A DNA stretch of 64,000 nt from Clostridium ljungdahlii DSM 13528 (GTDB lineage: Bacteria; Bacillota; Clostridia; Clostridiales; Clostridiaceae), in assembly GCF_000143685.1 (NCBI RefSeq), contig NC_014328.1, positions 558,001-622,000 of the forward strand, written 5' to 3'. Every line of letters begins with the position of its first letter. Position 1 is the stretch's first letter. The notes under the pieces are model-generated. The model was not told where the DNA came from. It did not search any database and saw only the letters and a list, made by a program, of their open reading frames with translations. Position numbers and translations under genes: made by a program. Shown here piece after piece: positions 56,620 through 64,000 of this stretch.

Positions 56620-57286
56620 TATCATTCAACTTGAAAACGTGAATAAGATATATGGAAGAAGAGTTAAAAATAAGGTTTTATCGGAAGTAAATATATCCGT
56701 AGAAAAAGGATCTTTTAATTCCATTATAGGGGCATCGGGAAGTGGAAAGACCACTCTTTTAAATATAATGGGGATGTTGGATAAGCCAACAACAGGAGAA
56801 GTGTACATACAGGGTAAAAGTATAAAAAGTATAGGGAGAAATTCAAGAGCTGCAGTGAGAAATAAAAGCATAGGATTTGTTTTTCAGTTTCATTATCTTC
56901 TACCCGAGTTTAATGCAATACAAAATGTACTTATGCCTTACAGAATAAAGCATTTTTTTTGCGGTAGAAGTGCTAAGAGAAAGGCAGAAGAACTTTTGGA
57001 ACTAGTTGGACTTTCTGAGTGCAAGAAAAAGAAGGTATATGACTTATCAGGGGGACAGCAGCAAAGAATTGCTATAGCTAGGGCACTTATGAACGATCCC
57101 AGCATAGTTCTTGCGGACGAGCCCACTGGAAATCTTGATTCTACAAATGCAGAGAGTATTTATAAACTCTTTCGACAAATAAATGATAAGTTTAGTACTA
57201 CCTTTATTATTGTAACTCACGATGTAAATATAGCTAATAAAACTGATAGGATAATACAGATAAAAGATGGACAAGTGCGGGATTAA
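56612..57286 (+). CDS. ABC transporter ATPase, LolD/MacB type
   Basis: A 224-aa ATPase. Walker A 'IIGASGSGKTTLL', Q-loop 'VFQFHYLLPEF', signature 'YDLSGGQQQRIAIARAL', Walker B 'IVLADEPTGNLDS', and H-loop 'FIIVTHDVN' are all intact. It pairs with the preceding permease. A terminator overlaps its stop codon. Confidence 0.93.
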   Translation: MDNIIQLENVNKIYGRRVKNKVLSEVNISVEKGSFNSIIGASGSGKTTLLNIMGMLDKPTTGEVYIQGKSIKSIGRNSRAAVRNKSIGFVFQFHYLLPEFNAIQNVLMPYRIKHFFCGRSAKRKAEELLELVGLSECKKKKVYDLSGGQQQRIAIARALMNDPSIVLADEPTGNLDSTNAESIYKLFRQINDKFSTTFIIVTHDVNIANKTDRIIQIKDGQVRD

Positions 57287-57310
57287 CCTTCACTTGTTCT
57301 TTTATATTTA
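57269..57310 (+). terminator. Intrinsic terminator of the ABC operon
   Basis: GGACAAGTG (57269-57277) pairs with CACTTGTTC (57291-57299), followed by TTTTATATTT. The stop codon of the ATPase gene lies in the loop. It separates this operon from the GTPase operon. Confidence 0.8.
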
Positions 57311-57323
57311 CAAAATTTTAATT

Positions 57324-57351
57324 TTGAACTCCTAATACAATGGTATATACT
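57324..57351 (+). promoter_or_regulatory. sigmaA promoter of the GTPase/tubulin-like operon
   Basis: TTGAAC (57324-57329), a 16-bp spacer and TATACT (57346-57351). Transcription would begin near 57358, directly before the ribosome site GAAGGGAG. It follows a terminator, so the five downstream genes form their own operon. Confidence 0.6.
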
Positions 57352-57375
57352 AATATTGAAGGGAGTATGAGTAAA

Positions 57376-58419
57376 ATGGACGAAAAAAAGGAGAGAGAAA
57401 TGGAAGAATTAGCTGAGGAAATTGACATAATATTTTCAGTTAAAGATAATATTTCTCAGAGTGAAATAAATAACTTCCTAAATAAATTTACTGAGTTATC
57501 GGAAGATGATATACGAAAAAAAATATCAGAAATTACTGGAGATAATTCCTATATAGAAAATTCGTCTTCAGATCAAAACGATAAAAACTCCACAGAGAAT
57601 ATAGATTCTGAAAGCTGCAGTGAAGTAAAGGTTGAAGATTCTCCAGAAGAGCTGGATGAAGATAAAATTGAAAATGTAAATGATGATTTACAATTACATA
57701 TAGATGAATTACCTGAGAAATCAGAGGATAATAAAATTAAACCTATTTTTGATGATGGAAACATTCCGGATGTACCCTTTGTAAGAGCAGAAATAAAATA
57801 TGGGCAACTGTCTCTGGAATGGGGATGGCCAGAAGGTATAGACAAAGTACTTTTATGCTGCAGGATGGATAGATTTCCAGAGTCACCTTCAGATTCCAGT
57901 GCTTCTCATGCAATTATAGAGAGAGAGGAAGATTTTGAAACAGGAGATTACACCATAAGTAAAATAGAAGAAGGAAATTATTATTTCTGTATTTATACTG
58001 TGGTGGAATATGAAAACAAGACGTTATATTCTGAAGGTCAGAGAAGGCTTGTAGTAAATAAAGTACCCCAGGAAATATTTTATGAAATAGACTTAAAAAG
58101 AAGTCTCTTGGGTAAATTAAAATCTGCTAGGATAAGCTTATCTTCAGCATCTTCTAAATCTTTTTCAAAGGGAGAAATAGAATTGCCACAGCTTGTTTTA
58201 ATCAGTAAGATAGGAAATATGCCTGTCCAAAAATCTGATGGAGAAATTTTGTTTAATATAGATTATGAAACCTTAAAAAATGATGAAATCATGGACTTTG
58301 ATTTGCCTATTGAAAATATAAGAAAAAATATGTATGTGAAATTATTTTTTGTAGATGACTCTAACAGCAAGTTATACAGGATAGTTTCGCCAGCTAAGGA
58401 AAAACTGTACTTTAAGTAA
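57376..58419 (+). CDS. Acidic protein with beta-sandwich domain, GTPase operon
   Basis: A 347-aa protein I do not recognise by name. The N-terminus is a charged helix ('EREMEELAEEIDIIF') followed by a low-complexity acidic stretch (about 60-130). Residues about 135-225 look like a fibronectin III-type beta-sandwich ('GQLSLEWGWPEGIDKVLLCC', 'GDYTISKIEEGNYYFCIYT'), then a further beta-rich region. There is no signal peptide or membrane segment. ATG 57376 fits the spacing to GGGAG; ATG 57367 is possible. As first gene of the operon it is probably an adaptor for the GTPase/GAP1 proteins; this is an inference. Confidence 0.6.
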   Translation: MDEKKEREMEELAEEIDIIFSVKDNISQSEINNFLNKFTELSEDDIRKKISEITGDNSYIENSSSDQNDKNSTENIDSESCSEVKVEDSPEELDEDKIENVNDDLQLHIDELPEKSEDNKIKPIFDDGNIPDVPFVRAEIKYGQLSLEWGWPEGIDKVLLCCRMDRFPESPSDSSASHAIIEREEDFETGDYTISKIEEGNYYFCIYTVVEYENKTLYSEGQRRLVVNKVPQEIFYEIDLKRSLLGKLKSARISLSSASSKSFSKGEIELPQLVLISKIGNMPVQKSDGEILFNIDYETLKNDEIMDFDLPIENIRKNMYVKLFFVDDSNSKLYRIVSPAKEKLYFK

Positions 58420-58436
58420 AGAGGGGAGGATTAACT

Positions 58437-59615
58437 GTGAAACTTAACTTTAGAAAAAAAGATGATTATATATGTCCCTATTGTTTTTCTAAACATGCTT
58501 TAAATGAAGTGAATTTTATATGCAGAAATGATCCTGATTTATGTGAAAATGCAAGAAACCTAACGCCCATAAAGCCAAAGAACGTTGAGGACAAAAATGA
58601 AATGCCGGATTATGTGTTTTGCAATGAGTGTGGACAGAAAACCAATATAAAAGTATGTCCAACCTGTAATCAGGAACTCCCATATTCAATTGGAGAATAT
58701 GATAATTTAATATTTGCAGTAATTGGTGCAAAGGAGGCAGGAAAAAGCCATTATATTGCAGTTTTGATTCAAAAGATAATGAACGAGATAGCTTCAGCCT
58801 TCAATTATAGTCTTTCAGCAGTTGATGATGCTACTATGAATAGATATAGAAATGATTTTTATAATCCTATTTTTAAGAGAAATGAAATTATAGGAGTAAC
58901 TCATTCTGCTAAAACTGATGCTTCTGTAAAGCAGCCTCTTATATATAATCTTGTTTTTAAGGATAACGGAATATTTGGAAGCTTTTTAAAAAGTAAGAAG
59001 ATAAGCAATGCAGTTACTATTGCTTTTTTTGATACTGCAGGTGAGGATTTAGATTCTGAAAATACTATGAAAACTGTAAATAAGTACATATATAATTCTT
59101 CAGGTATAATATTTTTGCTTGACCCTCTTCAGCTGGAGGAAGTCAGGAGAAAGCTGCCTAAAAATATTAAATTGCCGCAGCAAAATACAGAAATAGAAGA
59201 CTTGCTTTCTAGAACGGCAAACCTTATTAGAAAAGCAAATGATATAGGAATGGATAAGCTTATAGACATACCTGTGGCTGTGGCTTTTTCAAAAATTGAT
59301 GCAGTGGAATCACTGATTGATCCATCAAGCTGCATAAATTATCCAAGCAGCCATGTAAGTAAGGGATATTTTGATTTGGCAGATTTTGAGGATGTAAATG
59401 GAACAATGGAATCTTTAGTCAGGAACTGGGGTGGAGAAAATTTTGCAAATCAGCTTAGTTCAAATTTTAAAGAGTACGCTTATTTTGGATTGACAGCTCT
59501 TGGATGTAATCCTGAAAGTAACAGGATAGCTAAGCTTAGACCACATAGGGTAGAAGATCCTTTTTTGTGGCTTCTCTATAAATACAAATTTATTAAGGGA
59601 GAAAAGAGGAAGTGA
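58437..59615 (+). CDS. Zinc-ribbon TRAFAC-like GTPase (DO-GTPase2-like)
   Basis: A 392-aa protein. Two zinc ribbons lead: C13-x2-C16 with C29 and C36, and C62-x2-C65 with C74-x2-C77. The GTPase domain follows with Walker A 'GAKEAGKS' (97-104), a switch II-like 'AFFDTAGED' (about 200) and a base-specificity motif 'AFSKIDA' (about 285). This matches the double-zinc-ribbon GTPases found next to GAP1 proteins in predicted conflict systems. It starts at GTG 58437 with GGGGAGGA. It is 6 bp before the GAP1 gene. No experimental function is known to me. Confidence 0.75.
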   Translation: MKLNFRKKDDYICPYCFSKHALNEVNFICRNDPDLCENARNLTPIKPKNVEDKNEMPDYVFCNECGQKTNIKVCPTCNQELPYSIGEYDNLIFAVIGAKEAGKSHYIAVLIQKIMNEIASAFNYSLSAVDDATMNRYRNDFYNPIFKRNEIIGVTHSAKTDASVKQPLIYNLVFKDNGIFGSFLKSKKISNAVTIAFFDTAGEDLDSENTMKTVNKYIYNSSGIIFLLDPLQLEEVRRKLPKNIKLPQQNTEIEDLLSRTANLIRKANDIGMDKLIDIPVAVAFSKIDAVESLIDPSSCINYPSSHVSKGYFDLADFEDVNGTMESLVRNWGGENFANQLSSNFKEYAYFGLTALGCNPESNRIAKLRPHRVEDPFLWLLYKYKFIKGEKRK

Positions 59616-59621
59616 TAGATA

Positions 59622-62228
59622 ATGGCAGTTCAGCAGCTTTTTTATACGTCCTGTAAAAAGGGCTTGTCCTCTGGAATGGGATTTCAAACTTATTCCATGT
59701 CAAAAGGTATTACAGACAAAGAGAGAATGGAAATAGAAAGCCACTGCATATACATACCGCCTTCTAATCTTCCAACACAACCTACCAAAGAAGAGATAGA
59801 CAGGTTGTTTCCTATATCTTTTTCTTATTTTAGACTTGAAAGTGGAAAGTACTGTATTTCACAAATTAAATATGTGGGAAAAGATTATTCAGAGAGATAT
59901 GGAAATTACTTTTGCCATGTACTTATATCGAATAATGCTTGGGAGTTTTATCCTATAGAGCTTTATGAATCGCCTGTTTTTAGAGATTGTTTGAGTGAAG
60001 AAGAAAAAAATGCTGTTGAAATAGATTATCTTCCTGAAATTACGGAGATTCCACTAGGAAATGTAGTTGATTTTGATGAAATAAGTAATTTTTTAAAAGG
60101 CAGTGGAGGAGATAGGGGTAAGAAATTTACAAGTCTTTTAGAACGTGTTGTGACGTATAATAGTTCCAAAAAAAGAATTATACTTGCAGATGTAAAAGAA
60201 AACATTCCTTTTTGGATTGGGTCAGTTTGTATGTCACTACCTAAAAAGCTGGCACTGCAATTTAGTTTTACTACTTACAGCTATAACCCAGATAATACAG
60301 ACTATATACTCTGCGGTATAAGTAAAAATGGTAGCAAATTTAATTTTGCAGACAATCGAAAGATGTATGAGTACAGTGCTATGAATTTTTCAGAAGATTG
60401 TCCAAGGAGCAAAAGCAGTTTTTCAAAGCGGGCTGAAGTAGGATACACTGTTTCAAAAGAAGTGTTCCTGCCTTTTCTAAAATTTTTAGATCAGTTTGAG
60501 TACAATAAACTGGATGAAGAAGTGGATAATTGTGTAACCCTTTATAATATAGTAAAAAAGGGACTTGAAAAATGCAGTATAGAAGATGTGAAAAAAGCCC
60601 TCAGCTTTGCAATTAAATATAAATCGGAAGAGGCCTATGAGGAACTCTTTCATCAGATTGATGCAAGACTTGAAAAGATAAGTACACAGGTGGATGTCCA
60701 GCTTTGCTATATGATAACTACATTTTTACTTAAAGTGTCTAGAGACATAGGTGATGATAATTATATAGTAAAGGCTTATAAATTTTTCTTTGACTCTCTT
60801 GATTATATTGCAGTTTATAGCAAAGATACGGATATTTATGAAATGTTGAATTTGCGTAAAAGAATGGCACAGGATGAAATGGATAATATGGGTCAATTTT
60901 TAGAAGCTTCGCTGAGTCCAGATAGAATAAAAAGTATTCAAAAGGATATTAAAGAAAATCCAGTTTATTATTCAATTTCTACAATATCAGATATAATTTA
61001 CTCCGGGTACACTTTTAAAGATAAAAATGTTACTTTGCTTTTAAATAACTGTATAAAATTTTTAATAGCATCTGAAGACAACACTTTATATGTGCTCAAT
61101 TATTTTAAAAATGATTGTGAGTGTATCTCAAAAATTATTATTAGAATTTACTGCATAAACTATTATTTAGGTAGAAACGAAACTATTTTGGATTTGCTTG
61201 CGAAATTTGTTGTAGATGAGGGAAACAGGGATGGTAATTGGAAGAAAAAAGTCTATTCAAATATGTACAACCTTCCAAACTCCTATAATTTTTTATTTTC
61301 TCTATATGTTTTTCAGTTAAAGAAAAATATTGAAAATCAGGACTTTTTTACAAATTACTGCAGTGAAATATTCAACTCTTTTGAAGAGTACAGAAGTGAA
61401 AAATTTTCAGATGCTTTTAAATTGTATTTGGAATTTTATCATGGAGATGACGCAGCCCTTGAAAGTTACAAGGGAATATTGAATTATATAATTGATAACT
61501 TAAATATGCACATTGTGGATAAAAAAGTAATGGAGAAGTTTATAACGGATGTAGAAGAAAAATTAAGTATAGATAATGCAGTAGAAGAAAATGGACTTAT
61601 TGAAACAATTTTAAAATTAAAAAGAAAGTATAATATTACAACTATCTGTAATATATCAGAACTTTTGTATATTGGTAAGAGAATTGAAAATCCAGATATG
61701 GACTACAATGAAAAACTTCTTAAGAAGGTTAAATATAACTTTTCACATATGAGTGAGGAAAAGTATAGAGAATACTTAAGCTGGCTTTTACCTAATATAT
61801 TAGTGCAGTCTTCTGGCTCTGCAGGCCATATAAAGGTAAAAAAGACTTTTTTTTGTTCCAAATATGAAGATACCTTTTACGATGTATATGTTAATGGTAT
61901 AGAGGATATACTTTTTACAAAAAAATATAAAAACTTAATGGGTTCTCGATACAATGATAGGTATAAAATATTTTTAGATTTTTTCATAACCTTATATAAA
62001 AATAAGAAAAATTTAAGTGAAGAAAGGGAAAATATTATATATAATAGAGTAATAGAAATACTTATAAAAATTTCTCAAAAAAAGTTAAAAGAGTATACTG
62101 CCTATATTGTTGATAAGACGAGTAAATTAAAAAATCAAGTTTACATTAGAGAAAAGTGGCTTGAAATTGAAAAAGAAGCAGAGGAAAAGGGCAAGAAAAA
62201 GGGTATACTTGATCTTTTTAAAAAATGA
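59622..62228 (+). CDS. GTPase-associated protein 1 (GAP1)-like
   Basis: An 868-aa cytoplasmic protein. Its N-terminal about 150 residues ('QQLFYTSCKKGLSSGMGFQT', 'FRLESGKYCISQIKYVG', 'SERYGNYFCHVLI') match the GAP1-N domain that accompanies the double-zinc-ribbon GTPases. The middle (about 170-300) has 'WIGSVCMSLPKKLALQFSFTT' (split: WIGSVCMSLPKK, LALQFSFTT). The rest is a long alpha-helical region, perhaps a helical-repeat scaffold, ending in a lysine-rich tail. Such proteins are predicted partners of the GTPase; whether they act as activators is not shown. 'GAP1' is a family name, not proof of GTPase activation. Confidence 0.7.
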   Translation: MAVQQLFYTSCKKGLSSGMGFQTYSMSKGITDKERMEIESHCIYIPPSNLPTQPTKEEIDRLFPISFSYFRLESGKYCISQIKYVGKDYSERYGNYFCHVLISNNAWEFYPIELYESPVFRDCLSEEEKNAVEIDYLPEITEIPLGNVVDFDEISNFLKGSGGDRGKKFTSLLERVVTYNSSKKRIILADVKENIPFWIGSVCMSLPKKLALQFSFTTYSYNPDNTDYILCGISKNGSKFNFADNRKMYEYSAMNFSEDCPRSKSSFSKRAEVGYTVSKEVFLPFLKFLDQFEYNKLDEEVDNCVTLYNIVKKGLEKCSIEDVKKALSFAIKYKSEEAYEELFHQIDARLEKISTQVDVQLCYMITTFLLKVSRDIGDDNYIVKAYKFFFDSLDYIAVYSKDTDIYEMLNLRKRMAQDEMDNMGQFLEASLSPDRIKSIQKDIKENPVYYSISTISDIIYSGYTFKDKNVTLLLNNCIKFLIASEDNTLYVLNYFKNDCECISKIIIRIYCINYYLGRNETILDLLAKFVVDEGNRDGNWKKKVYSNMYNLPNSYNFLFSLYVFQLKKNIENQDFFTNYCSEIFNSFEEYRSEKFSDAFKLYLEFYHGDDAALESYKGILNYIIDNLNMHIVDKKVMEKFITDVEEKLSIDNAVEENGLIETILKLKRKYNITTICNISELLYIGKRIENPDMDYNEKLLKKVKYNFSHMSEEKYREYLSWLLPNILVQSSGSAGHIKVKKTFFCSKYEDTFYDVYVNGIEDILFTKKYKNLMGSRYNDRYKIFLDFFITLYKNKKNLSEERENIIYNRVIEILIKISQKKLKEYTAYIVDKTSKLKNQVYIREKWLEIEKEAEEKGKKKGILDLFKK

Positions 62229-62249
62229 TTTAGAGAGGTGTTATTTACT

Positions 62250-63704
62250 GTGAAAACTAGAGCTAAGATGGTTCTCATTGCAGTTTTTGTGTATGTTCTC
62301 CAATTGGGTTTTATACCTTCACAAAAGGTATATGCCAGTACATCATCTCCAAATGTAGATGTAGTTTTTGTGCTTGATTCAAGTGGGTCTATGAAACAAA
62401 GTGATCCAGAGGAGATAAGGACAGAAGCTATAAAGATGTTTTTGGATATGGGACAGGTACAGGGAAACAAGGCAGGACTTGTGGCTTATTCAGATACTAT
62501 AATAAAAGAACATAACCTGGATGCAATAAATTCTGAATCGGATAAAGAGAGAATAGAGGAAATGGCTTCTAATATACCTCTTGGGCAGAAAACCGATATT
62601 GGAAGAGGTCTTTTGGAAGGTGCAAAGGTATTAGATAGTGGACATGACAGCAATAATAGACCACTTATAATACTGCTGTCCGATGGCAAAAATGATTCTC
62701 AAAGGAGTGCCAGTGAATCTTTAAAGGATTTAAATAGTGCAATAAGCACATGCAAAAGCAAAGGTTATCCTGTGTATACTATAGGACTCAACTATGATGG
62801 AACTGTAGATAAAGCACAGTTAACTCAAATAGCCAGTGAAACAAAGGGAAAAAACTACATAACCAATAAGGCATCAGACCTTACAGATATACTAAAGGAT
62901 ATATATGGAGACAGTGCAAATGTAAAAGTTCAGGATCAGGGAAATATTGTGGCTGATGGAACCTTTCAGGATTTTAAAATAAATGTACCAGGGTCAAATG
63001 TTTTGGAAGCCAATATATCTATGGTTACAGACAACCCTTTAGAATTAAAGCTTATAAACCCTTCAGGTAAGGAAATACAGATACCTTCAAGTGATGTGGT
63101 TTTTACAAAATCAAAGAAGTATTCAGTACTTAAGATTGTAAAACCTGCGAGCGGTCAGTGGAATCTAAAGGTGAAAGGTGTAAGCGGAAGTAATATAAAG
63201 ATAAGTTATGTATTTAACTATAAAAATCAGGGAAACCAAAGTTCTGTAGATAAAAACATTCAAGGCGATAAGTCTGTATTTAAAAGTCCAAAGGTCATAG
63301 GAGCAGCTGCGGCTGCAGCACTAATTATTATAGGTCTTGCAGCCTTTGTACTGATGAAGAAAAGACGTGTACAGGGATTTGGAAGACTAGAAATTCACAT
63401 TAAGGATGAAAGTACTAGTGAGGTTCTTTCACCTCAATTTAGAAATTTGGATAATTACAGCGGAAGTTTTACACTTTTTGAAGTCTTAGGATTAAAAGAA
63501 GAGTATGCAGAAACAGAAAATATAAAATTCATATTTAAAGAAGATGACAGCATAGAACTTGTAAATAAGTCAGGCTGTGTACTGCAAAAGTCTGGTAGAA
63601 AGCTTGAGGAGGGTTCTAAGCTACTCCTTTATAACAGGGATAAAGTAACAGTGTTTTTAAATAAAGTAACAAAGAGTATAACATTAGAATTTCACTCAAA
63701 ATAG
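62250..63704 (+). CDS. Membrane-anchored von Willebrand factor A protein
   Basis: A 484-aa secreted/membrane protein. Signal peptide at 1-about 30 (ending SQKVYAS), then a vWA domain (about 35-220) with an intact MIDAS: 'VVFVLDSSGSMKQSD', a Thr in 'LGQKTDIGRG' and 'IILLSDGKNDS'. A beta-sandwich (about 230-335) follows, then a membrane helix (about 344-366) and a cytoplasmic C-terminal domain (about 370-484) of FHA/ubiquitin-like size. GTG 62250 is chosen because the upstream GTG 62238 overlaps the GAGGTG ribosome site. It could link an extracellular signal to the GTPase and tubulin-like proteins inside. Confidence 0.82.
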   Translation: MKTRAKMVLIAVFVYVLQLGFIPSQKVYASTSSPNVDVVFVLDSSGSMKQSDPEEIRTEAIKMFLDMGQVQGNKAGLVAYSDTIIKEHNLDAINSESDKERIEEMASNIPLGQKTDIGRGLLEGAKVLDSGHDSNNRPLIILLSDGKNDSQRSASESLKDLNSAISTCKSKGYPVYTIGLNYDGTVDKAQLTQIASETKGKNYITNKASDLTDILKDIYGDSANVKVQDQGNIVADGTFQDFKINVPGSNVLEANISMVTDNPLELKLINPSGKEIQIPSSDVVFTKSKKYSVLKIVKPASGQWNLKVKGVSGSNIKISYVFNYKNQGNQSSVDKNIQGDKSVFKSPKVIGAAAAAALIIIGLAAFVLMKKRRVQGFGRLEIHIKDESTSEVLSPQFRNLDNYSGSFTLFEVLGLKEEYAETENIKFIFKEDDSIELVNKSGCVLQKSGRKLEEGSKLLLYNRDKVTVFLNKVTKSITLEFHSK

Positions 63705-63723
63705 TGTCAAAGGGAGGTAGAAT

Positions 63724-64000
63724 ATGAATACTAGAGTTAGGGAACACCTGGAAGACCTTGAAGTTAGCAAAGGTGGAGGAATAATAAGTGATAAGATACG
63801 TATAGAAACCATACCTAATCCAGTTCTTGTAATAGGACTTGGAGGAACAGGTATAGATGCTATGCTGAGATTAAAATATCAAATAAATAAAAGATTTGTG
63901 CTAGAACAGGACAGTATTTCAAATACAAGAAAAGATAAACCCAAGAAAGTTGAGTTCTTAGGTTTTGAAACAAATCAGGGAGAAAAAAATAAAAGATATC
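63724..64000 (+). CDS. Tubulin/FtsZ-like GTPase, N-terminal part
   Basis: The first 92 codons of a gene that runs off the window. After a short lead ('NTRVREHLEDLEVSKGGGI') comes 'PNPVLVIGLGGTGIDAMLRLK', here split as PNPVLVIG and LGGTGIDAMLRLK, a glycine loop like that of the tubulin-like family (Tubulin_2). GGGAGGT lies before the ATG. These large proteins are often encoded next to vWA and zinc-ribbon GTPase genes. The tubulin signature (G-box) and length cannot be checked here. Confidence 0.65.
   Translation, partial: MNTRVREHLEDLEVSKGGGIISDKIRIETIPNPVLVIGLGGTGIDAMLRLKYQINKRFVLEQDSISNTRKDKPKKVEFLGFETNQGEKNKRY

Follow-up and report, generated by a model that had tools for sequence, protein, structure and literature searches.

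What might a clostridium do with a tubulin-like protein whose gene stands in line with those of a von Willebrand factor A (vWA) surface protein, a zinc-ribbon GTPase and a GTPase-associated protein? The question is raised by the end of a 64,000-nucleotide stretch of Clostridium ljungdahlii DSM 13528 (the window; positions 558001-622000 of NC_014328.1, a single-contig genome of 4,630,065 bp), where an original prediction had seen five adjacent plus-strand genes and inferred that they pass an outside signal to a GTPase-controlled filament. That reading is partly supported overall: the operon is real and makes up much of a system of an already known type. The cluster belongs to the firmicutes tubulin theme of GAP1-N2 systems, already described by Kaur et al. 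(eLife 2020, PMC7159879; cited here, like PMC2875224 and PMC12008871, from part of its text). Added here are a near-fixed seven-gene set, a second predicted tubulin fold without a GTP-loop motif, a predicted helical arm inside the tubulin fold and an upstream module found only in the Clostridium loci. As its function we favour, with about even confidence, an envelope-linked tubulin scaffold switched by GTPases.

Gene content and conservation

The genes of the cluster are as follows (a window position is the position in the fetched locus, L002, plus 57,000; the last six lie beyond the window end and are given in window numbering).

57376..58419, + strand: fn1, acidic N-terminal part and conserved beta-sandwich (FnIII-like) part
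58437..59615, + strand: gtp1, DO-GTPase with CxxC zinc-ribbon pairs, P-loop GAKEAGKS and SKID
59622..62228, + strand: gap1L, GTPase-associated protein 1, type N2, 868 amino acids (aa)
62238..63704, + strand: vwa1, signal peptide, extracellular vWA (DSSGS), beta-sandwich, one transmembrane (TM) segment, cytoplasmic tail of ~115 aa
63724..64000 in the window (first 92 codons), + strand: tub, Tubulin_2/FtsZl1 protein of 1,135 aa (L002:6724-10131)
67149-69509: part, tubulin fold without GTP-loop motif, 786 aa
70056-71315: vwa2, vWA protein with six TM segments
71328-71990: fn2 (L002:14328-14990)
74547-75821: gtp2
75824-76879: gap1S, GAP1-N2 protein, 351 aa
76893-77675: zinc-ribbon/TM/YARHG protein

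Four complete open reading frames (ORFs) and an open fifth occupy 57,340-64,000, with gaps of 17, 6, 9 and 19 bp. The five genes were thus where the original prediction had placed them, closely spaced, except that the fifth is still open at codon 92 and the first run comprises six genes, to 69,509. Reading on past 64,000 yielded further members over ~13.7 kb, from the remainder of tub through part, vwa2, fn2, gtp2 and gap1S to the zinc-ribbon/YARHG gene. A 546-bp gap separates part from vwa2-fn2; a 2.6-kb fn2-gtp2 gap with three unrelated small genes follows, and then gtp2-gap1S-zinc-ribbon/YARHG to 77,675. Four paralogous pairs recur along the cluster (fn1/fn2, gtp1/gtp2, gap1L/gap1S and vwa1/vwa2), and the most unusual part, the tubulin without a GTP-loop motif, lies beyond the window end.

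Pfam returned all the domains that had been predicted. DO-GTPase2 scored 27.6 bits in gtp1 and 30.6 bits in gtp2 (cut-off 27), and the double zinc ribbon of gtp1 gave a sub-threshold match. GAP1-N2 and GAP1-M scored 130 and 58 bits in gap1L and 131 and 60 bits in gap1S, each of which adjoins a GTPase gene; VWA scored 81 bits in vwa1. In tub, Tubulin_2 reached 288 bits across residues 35-388. Pfam gave fn1 no match of any kind and found FN3 in neither fn1 nor fn2, though they are conserved, related (25% identity, E 6e-8; profile-profile probability 98%) and beta-rich by eye, and NCBIfam gave no match at its curated cut-off. The domain set shared with the theme of Kaur et al. (PMC7159879), which bears out the survey context given in the original prediction, comprises a zinc-ribbon DO-GTPase, GAP1-N2, a pair of tubulins and a pair of vWA proteins (one of them multi-TM), together with a candidate FnIII protein; the two tubulin-domain genes are what the theme demands. 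In contrast to that theme, Clostridium loci add an upstream GTPase/GAP1/FnIII module.

To gauge conservation we relied on 80 named loci, the best 80 of 254; because they were found with patterns from this tub, they lean to close relatives. Seven of our twelve clostridial loci recur among them and three C. kluyveri-clade genomes do not. As the gene caller overlooked some genes in G+C-rich loci, counts come from a stop-to-stop recount. The vwa1-tub-part core is present in all 80 loci, and the seven genes vwa1-tub-part-vwa2-fn2-gtp2-gap1 stand in the same order in 76, the other four being truncated; 65 loci have exactly this set. Upstream fn1-gtp1-gap1L was found in 12 loci, which are every Clostridium locus of the 80 and no others, and 10 of these 12 also have gtp3. 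Three loci end at contig ends, and the Clostridium locus L090 lacks gap1S merely because the fetched flank ends.

Co-occurrence at the genome level agreed. Of the 116 Clostridiaceae and 118 Paenibacillaceae genomes sampled, 11 and 55 have GAP1-N2, and all of these also carry Tubulin_2 over cut-off; the two lie on the same contig in 10 and 54 of them, respectively (tables read by the author). Given this strong co-occurrence in the two families sampled, the linkage on which the original prediction had staked itself is found. At greater distance the association loosens: a phylum sample of 299 genomes contained GAP1-N2 over cut-off in 7, Tubulin_2 in 9 and both in 5. A second GAP1-N2 elsewhere in Paenibacillaceae was sought and not found, each of the 55 genomes giving one match.

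All six examined (L083-L088) of the Clostridiaceae genomes with Tubulin_2 but without GAP1-N2 carry a short run of a vWA protein (~765 aa), a Tubulin_2 protein (~930-960 aa) and a 712-aa protein, followed in five of the six by a TM protein of 353-386 aa, transglutaminase-like by eye. Since these genomes carry the short run, a vWA-tubulin core can exist without the GTPase layer. The 712-aa protein was considered as a homologue of part and rejected, as the two had no profile similarity. In Bacilli, a divergent minus-strand gene (~310 aa, zinc-ribbon/TM by eye in the examples inspected) lies upstream of vwa1 in 61 of 67 loci (among L102-L169), and 44 loci have a second minus-strand ORF of ~595 aa, whose inspected examples carry a TM anchor. 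One example of each had no Pfam match over cut-off; both probably belong to the Bacilli version of the system.

The tubulin pair, its receptors and its GTPases

The tub protein, 99% identical to the C. ljungdahlii ERI-2 and C. ragsdalei P11 records, its nearest named relatives, has the GTP loop SGGTGSG, with S in place of the first G. Among the 45 relatives aligned (from 120 listed of 1,133 found), 44 carry GGTG[ST]G. The motif is present in none of 58 relatives of part (58 of 59 aligned, the 514-aa P0040 being excluded). The predicted structure of part is a whole tubulin fold, and with the motif lost the protein is apparently unable to bind GTP; its T7 loop may be lost as well, as read by eye from profile alignments, which we do not claim as shown. 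Both models place a long helical arm within the tubulin fold, and a C-terminal tubulin-like part is recovered past a helical insert of ~350 residues.

CetZ and the Asgard/bacterial tubulins are about half as long and lack an inserted helical arm, and we know of no dedicated GTPase/GAP1/vWA operon that accompanies them. Their overall fold (3zid, 9f6v, 7quq) is the same as that predicted here. Solved-structure relatives found by sequence for tub and part amounted to none, with one chance-level row each. Kaur et al. (PMC7159879) place the coiled coil C-terminally, whereas our models, of which that of tub is of moderate confidence, have it inside the tubulin fold. The FtsZl1 operons of Makarova and Koonin (2010, PMC2875224) share a tubulin-like domain with a coiled coil, a vWA neighbour and a diverged GTPase; there T6-H7 was not placed and the C-terminal part was described as unlike the FtsZ/tubulin C-domains, but our models recover it. 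The alignment legend of that paper includes C. kluyveri and Brevibacillus brevis, the family being unspecified there. Unlike FtsZl1 systems (PMC2875224), the cluster proteins scanned by Pfam had no OmpA or kinase domain. Two Paenibacillus relatives of part (P0048 and P0052) bear the public name ‘transcription initiation factor TFIID’, which looks misannotated.

The vWA protein with a signal peptide and cytoplasmic tail was confirmed in vwa1, and vwa2 combines a vWA domain with six hydrophobic segments, so that one of the two is multi-TM, as in the theme. There the other vWA protein carries YtkA, and GAP1 has a highly polar C-terminal extension (PMC7159879). The vwa1 of the C. ljungdahlii group differs in lacking the YtkA-like ectodomain region, as the second tubulin differs in lacking the GTP-loop motif. 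Relatives do have the region; in C. thailandense it matched YtkA below threshold (18.8 bits, cut-off 25.9), and it was not listed for one Paenibacillus protein. With the window protein as reference, identity to 11 other Clostridium and 11 Bacilli proteins was 72% and 44% in the vWA domain, 58% and 46% in the beta-sandwich, 22% and 16% in the TM stretch, and 61% and 36% in the tail. The tail is thus kept behind a divergent TM stretch and may bind something in the cytoplasm, for which the tubulin pair is the simplest candidate.

The P-loop, [ST]KxD and CxxC pairs are intact in 12 of 12 clostridial gtp1 and 12 of 12 gtp2 proteins. In trees, gtp1 and gap1L form deep clades apart from gtp2 and gap1S, which the Bacilli genes join, and the upstream module is therefore an old paralogue rather than a recent tandem copy. 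A recent duplication of the downstream GTPase/GAP1 module within Clostridium was considered and is unsupported, as long branches part the two sets; the long-branch warnings of the tree tool concern gtp3. The gtp3 proteins match the P-loop pattern in 9 of 9 and [NTS]KxD in 7 of 9, and two further copies lack the P-loop pattern. Some copies lack one or the other, and certain species may thus have a gtp3 that is failing or non-catalytic. At its C-terminus gap1L has, by eye, many charged residues. Some GAP1 proteins have a TM-like segment (that of a Paenibacillus example, L107, and one gap1S from Clostridium, G072); neither C. ljungdahlii copy does. At L089 (G072:C28), in a genome that also has a full locus, a further GAP1-N2 protein of 883 aa is 28% identical to gap1L; no DO-GTPase was recognised near it in a 13.8-kb stretch.

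Scaffold, conflict system or relic

Gene content, linkage, motifs, predicted folds, topology and selection were computed; from this anatomy we infer the docking, polymerisation, switching and ligand binding, as well as the job of the scaffold. Outside the cell, vwa1 and vwa2, whose MIDAS-type motifs are intact, would bind a wall or surface ligand. Inside, the vwa1 tail would dock a tubulin-superfamily pair, one member with the GTP-binding loop and one without, whose long helical arms could act as spacers or cross-links. Control at the membrane would fall to the zinc-ribbon DO-GTPases and the GAP1 proteins cognate to them, which would turn the assembly on or off; the FnIII-like proteins would be adaptors, and the scaffold would serve to organise or reinforce membrane and wall, or in adhesion. 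The anatomy suits the outside vWA sensor and GTPase-controlled tubulin filament of the original prediction; the coupling between them is conjecture. It is possible, at a rather low probability, that the pair of GTP-loop and GTP-dead tubulins is obligate, with its arms, its link through a receptor tail to MIDAS-type vWA proteins and its G-protein gate. We found no description of such a transmembrane receptor-to-tubulin linkage in the literature searched.

Two computational predictions, published in 2010 and 2020, compete for this class of system: membrane remodelling and biological conflict. On the second, the GAP1 and FnIII-like proteins would sense an invader, the DO-GTPase would set a threshold, and tubulin assembly would disable the cell or the invader. 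Kaur et al. (PMC7159879) place the same domain set among conflict systems and report an association with a multicellular habit (601 of 904 organisms); the distribution is patchy, and tub and the GTPases evolve more slowly than the genes for the FnIII-like and GAP1 proteins. However, 76 of the 80 loci have the same seven genes, none of which we recognised as a variable effector, and omega, from two pairwise comparisons per gene against two close species, is well below 1 for all genes tested: tub has 0.04, the GTPases have 0.02-0.07, part, vwa1 and vwa2 lie at 0.10-0.17, and fn1, fn2, gap1L, gap1S and YARHG at 0.11-0.29 (0.05-0.28 for eight flanking genes). Relatives of tub, all of them distant (25-27% identity), appear in 3 of 72,556 plasmid records, all Thermaceae, and in 1 of 50,697 phage records, and a divergent neighbour is constant in 61 of 67 Bacilli loci. 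Membership in a described defence family was rejected, since PADLOC gave one weak match for ten proteins (LmuB, 15.9 bits, E 1e-3). Because composition is nearly constant, selection is purifying and plasmid and phage records are almost devoid of the family, we favour the envelope-linked scaffold over the phage defence raised by the original prediction; a conflict role appears improbable. Selection, near-absence from mobile records and the constant Bacilli neighbour point to, but do not prove, a system that is resident and is acquired or lost whole, more than to a roaming defence module. The plasmid-borne Tubulin_2 proteins are on NZ_CP021131.1, NC_019387.1 and NC_014213.1.

Two narrower forms of the scaffold overlap it in probability. 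Makarova and Koonin (PMC2875224), who treat FtsZl1, a vWA protein and a diverged GTPase as a predicted system, propose membrane remodelling or vesicle biogenesis, in which tubulin filaments would bend or pinch the membrane. Several partners here do bear TM segments, but no ESCRT-, dynamin- or coat-like domain rose over cut-off in the proteins scanned and that model has no need of a tubulin without a GTP loop; we regard it as unlikely. A sensor of adhesion or aggregation, whose vWA/Ig-like ectodomains would attach to neighbours or matrix while the tubulin pair would serve as an integrin-like anchor, is doubtful, if a shade less so. It would account for a vWA domain with an intact MIDAS-type motif beside beta-sandwich domains, and a Methanoculleus operon of a vWA and a tubulin-like protein (annotated CetZ, not shown to be Tubulin_2) is up-regulated in motion versus static cultures (PMC12008871); yet the C. 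ljungdahlii group has lost the vwa1 ectodomain region, and the C. kluyveri clade is without vwa2, with the rest kept.

Several observations weigh against the GTPase-switched envelope scaffold, beginning with the placement among conflict systems noted above. Tubulin_2 over cut-off is patchy, with 21 of 116 Clostridiaceae, 56 of 118 Paenibacillaceae, 6 of 13 genomes of the genus and 9 of 299 of the phylum, and the system is therefore dispensable. Two of the seven GAP1-N2 genomes of the phylum sample have no Tubulin_2 over cut-off, and 10 of the 21 Tubulin_2 genomes of the Clostridiaceae sample lack GAP1-N2. The tub model is moderate (pLDDT 72.4), both tubulin models are single chains that reveal no complex or polymer, the profile comparison of tub with part is weak (probability 40-59%, E 3e-4 to 9e-5), and a search by Foldseek alone found nothing in the PDB at E<=0.001, the best matches, at 1.7e-3, being microtubule/tubulin entries. 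As the vwa1 tail is no better conserved than the ectodomains, its docking role is one that we infer. Finally, vwa2 is missing in three C. kluyveri-clade genomes (outside the 80-locus list), and unrelated genes interrupt the operon in the C. ljungdahlii group.

Among the papers listed by searches of the open literature, we found no experiments on a Bacillota Tubulin_2/GAP1 operon. Acetogens are used for gas fermentation. The family occurs in these gas-fermenting bacteria and in about half of the sampled Paenibacillaceae, and its near-fixed seven-gene core, GTP-loop-less second tubulin and retained receptor tail offer direct handles for tests. The two tubulins would provide a natural example of one that acts with an apparently nucleotide-free partner.

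Clostridial variation and transcription signals

The C. ljungdahlii group departs from other clostridia in ways that could suggest a decaying relic: gtp3 is missing from its three loci and was not found anywhere in the whole genome of the window, the YtkA-like region is absent, and the fn2-gtp2 gap has taken up insertions. Against this, the ten core and upstream-module genes are open, with omega of 0.02-0.29 against two close relatives, and decay is very improbable. In the two closest relatives (G006, G008) the gap contains overlapping but different sets of unrelated genes, and one of them has a TnpB-like insertion (named by eye) between fn1 and gtp1; insertions have therefore split the operon in this group. 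The gap (L002:14990-17547; G006, G008) is an insertion-prone spot with, by eye, NUDIX-like, SGNH-like, epimerase-like and small TM proteins.

Two signals precede fn1:

57266..57312, + strand: hairpin resembling a rho-independent terminator; it overlaps the end of the LolD-like ABC gene upstream, and TTCTTTTAT comes next
57324..57351, + strand: sigma-70-like promoter TTGAAC-16-TATACT, 9/12 consensus match

The terminator-like hairpin, taken for a terminator in the original prediction, folds at -15.2 kcal/mol (z = -5.1; 0 of 200 shuffles fold as well) and is missing from the output of a generic terminator scan. The promoter after it is weak evidence, because comparable sites are only slightly above chance in the region (127 sites of 9/12 found versus 100.7, standard deviation 10, expected in a 20-kb scan). 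The acidic beta-sandwich protein predicted as gene 1 has its acidic and FnIII-like parts, but its start needs moving: the ORF opens at 57340, ATG 57,340 falls within the promoter match, and ATG 57,376 is likely the better start.

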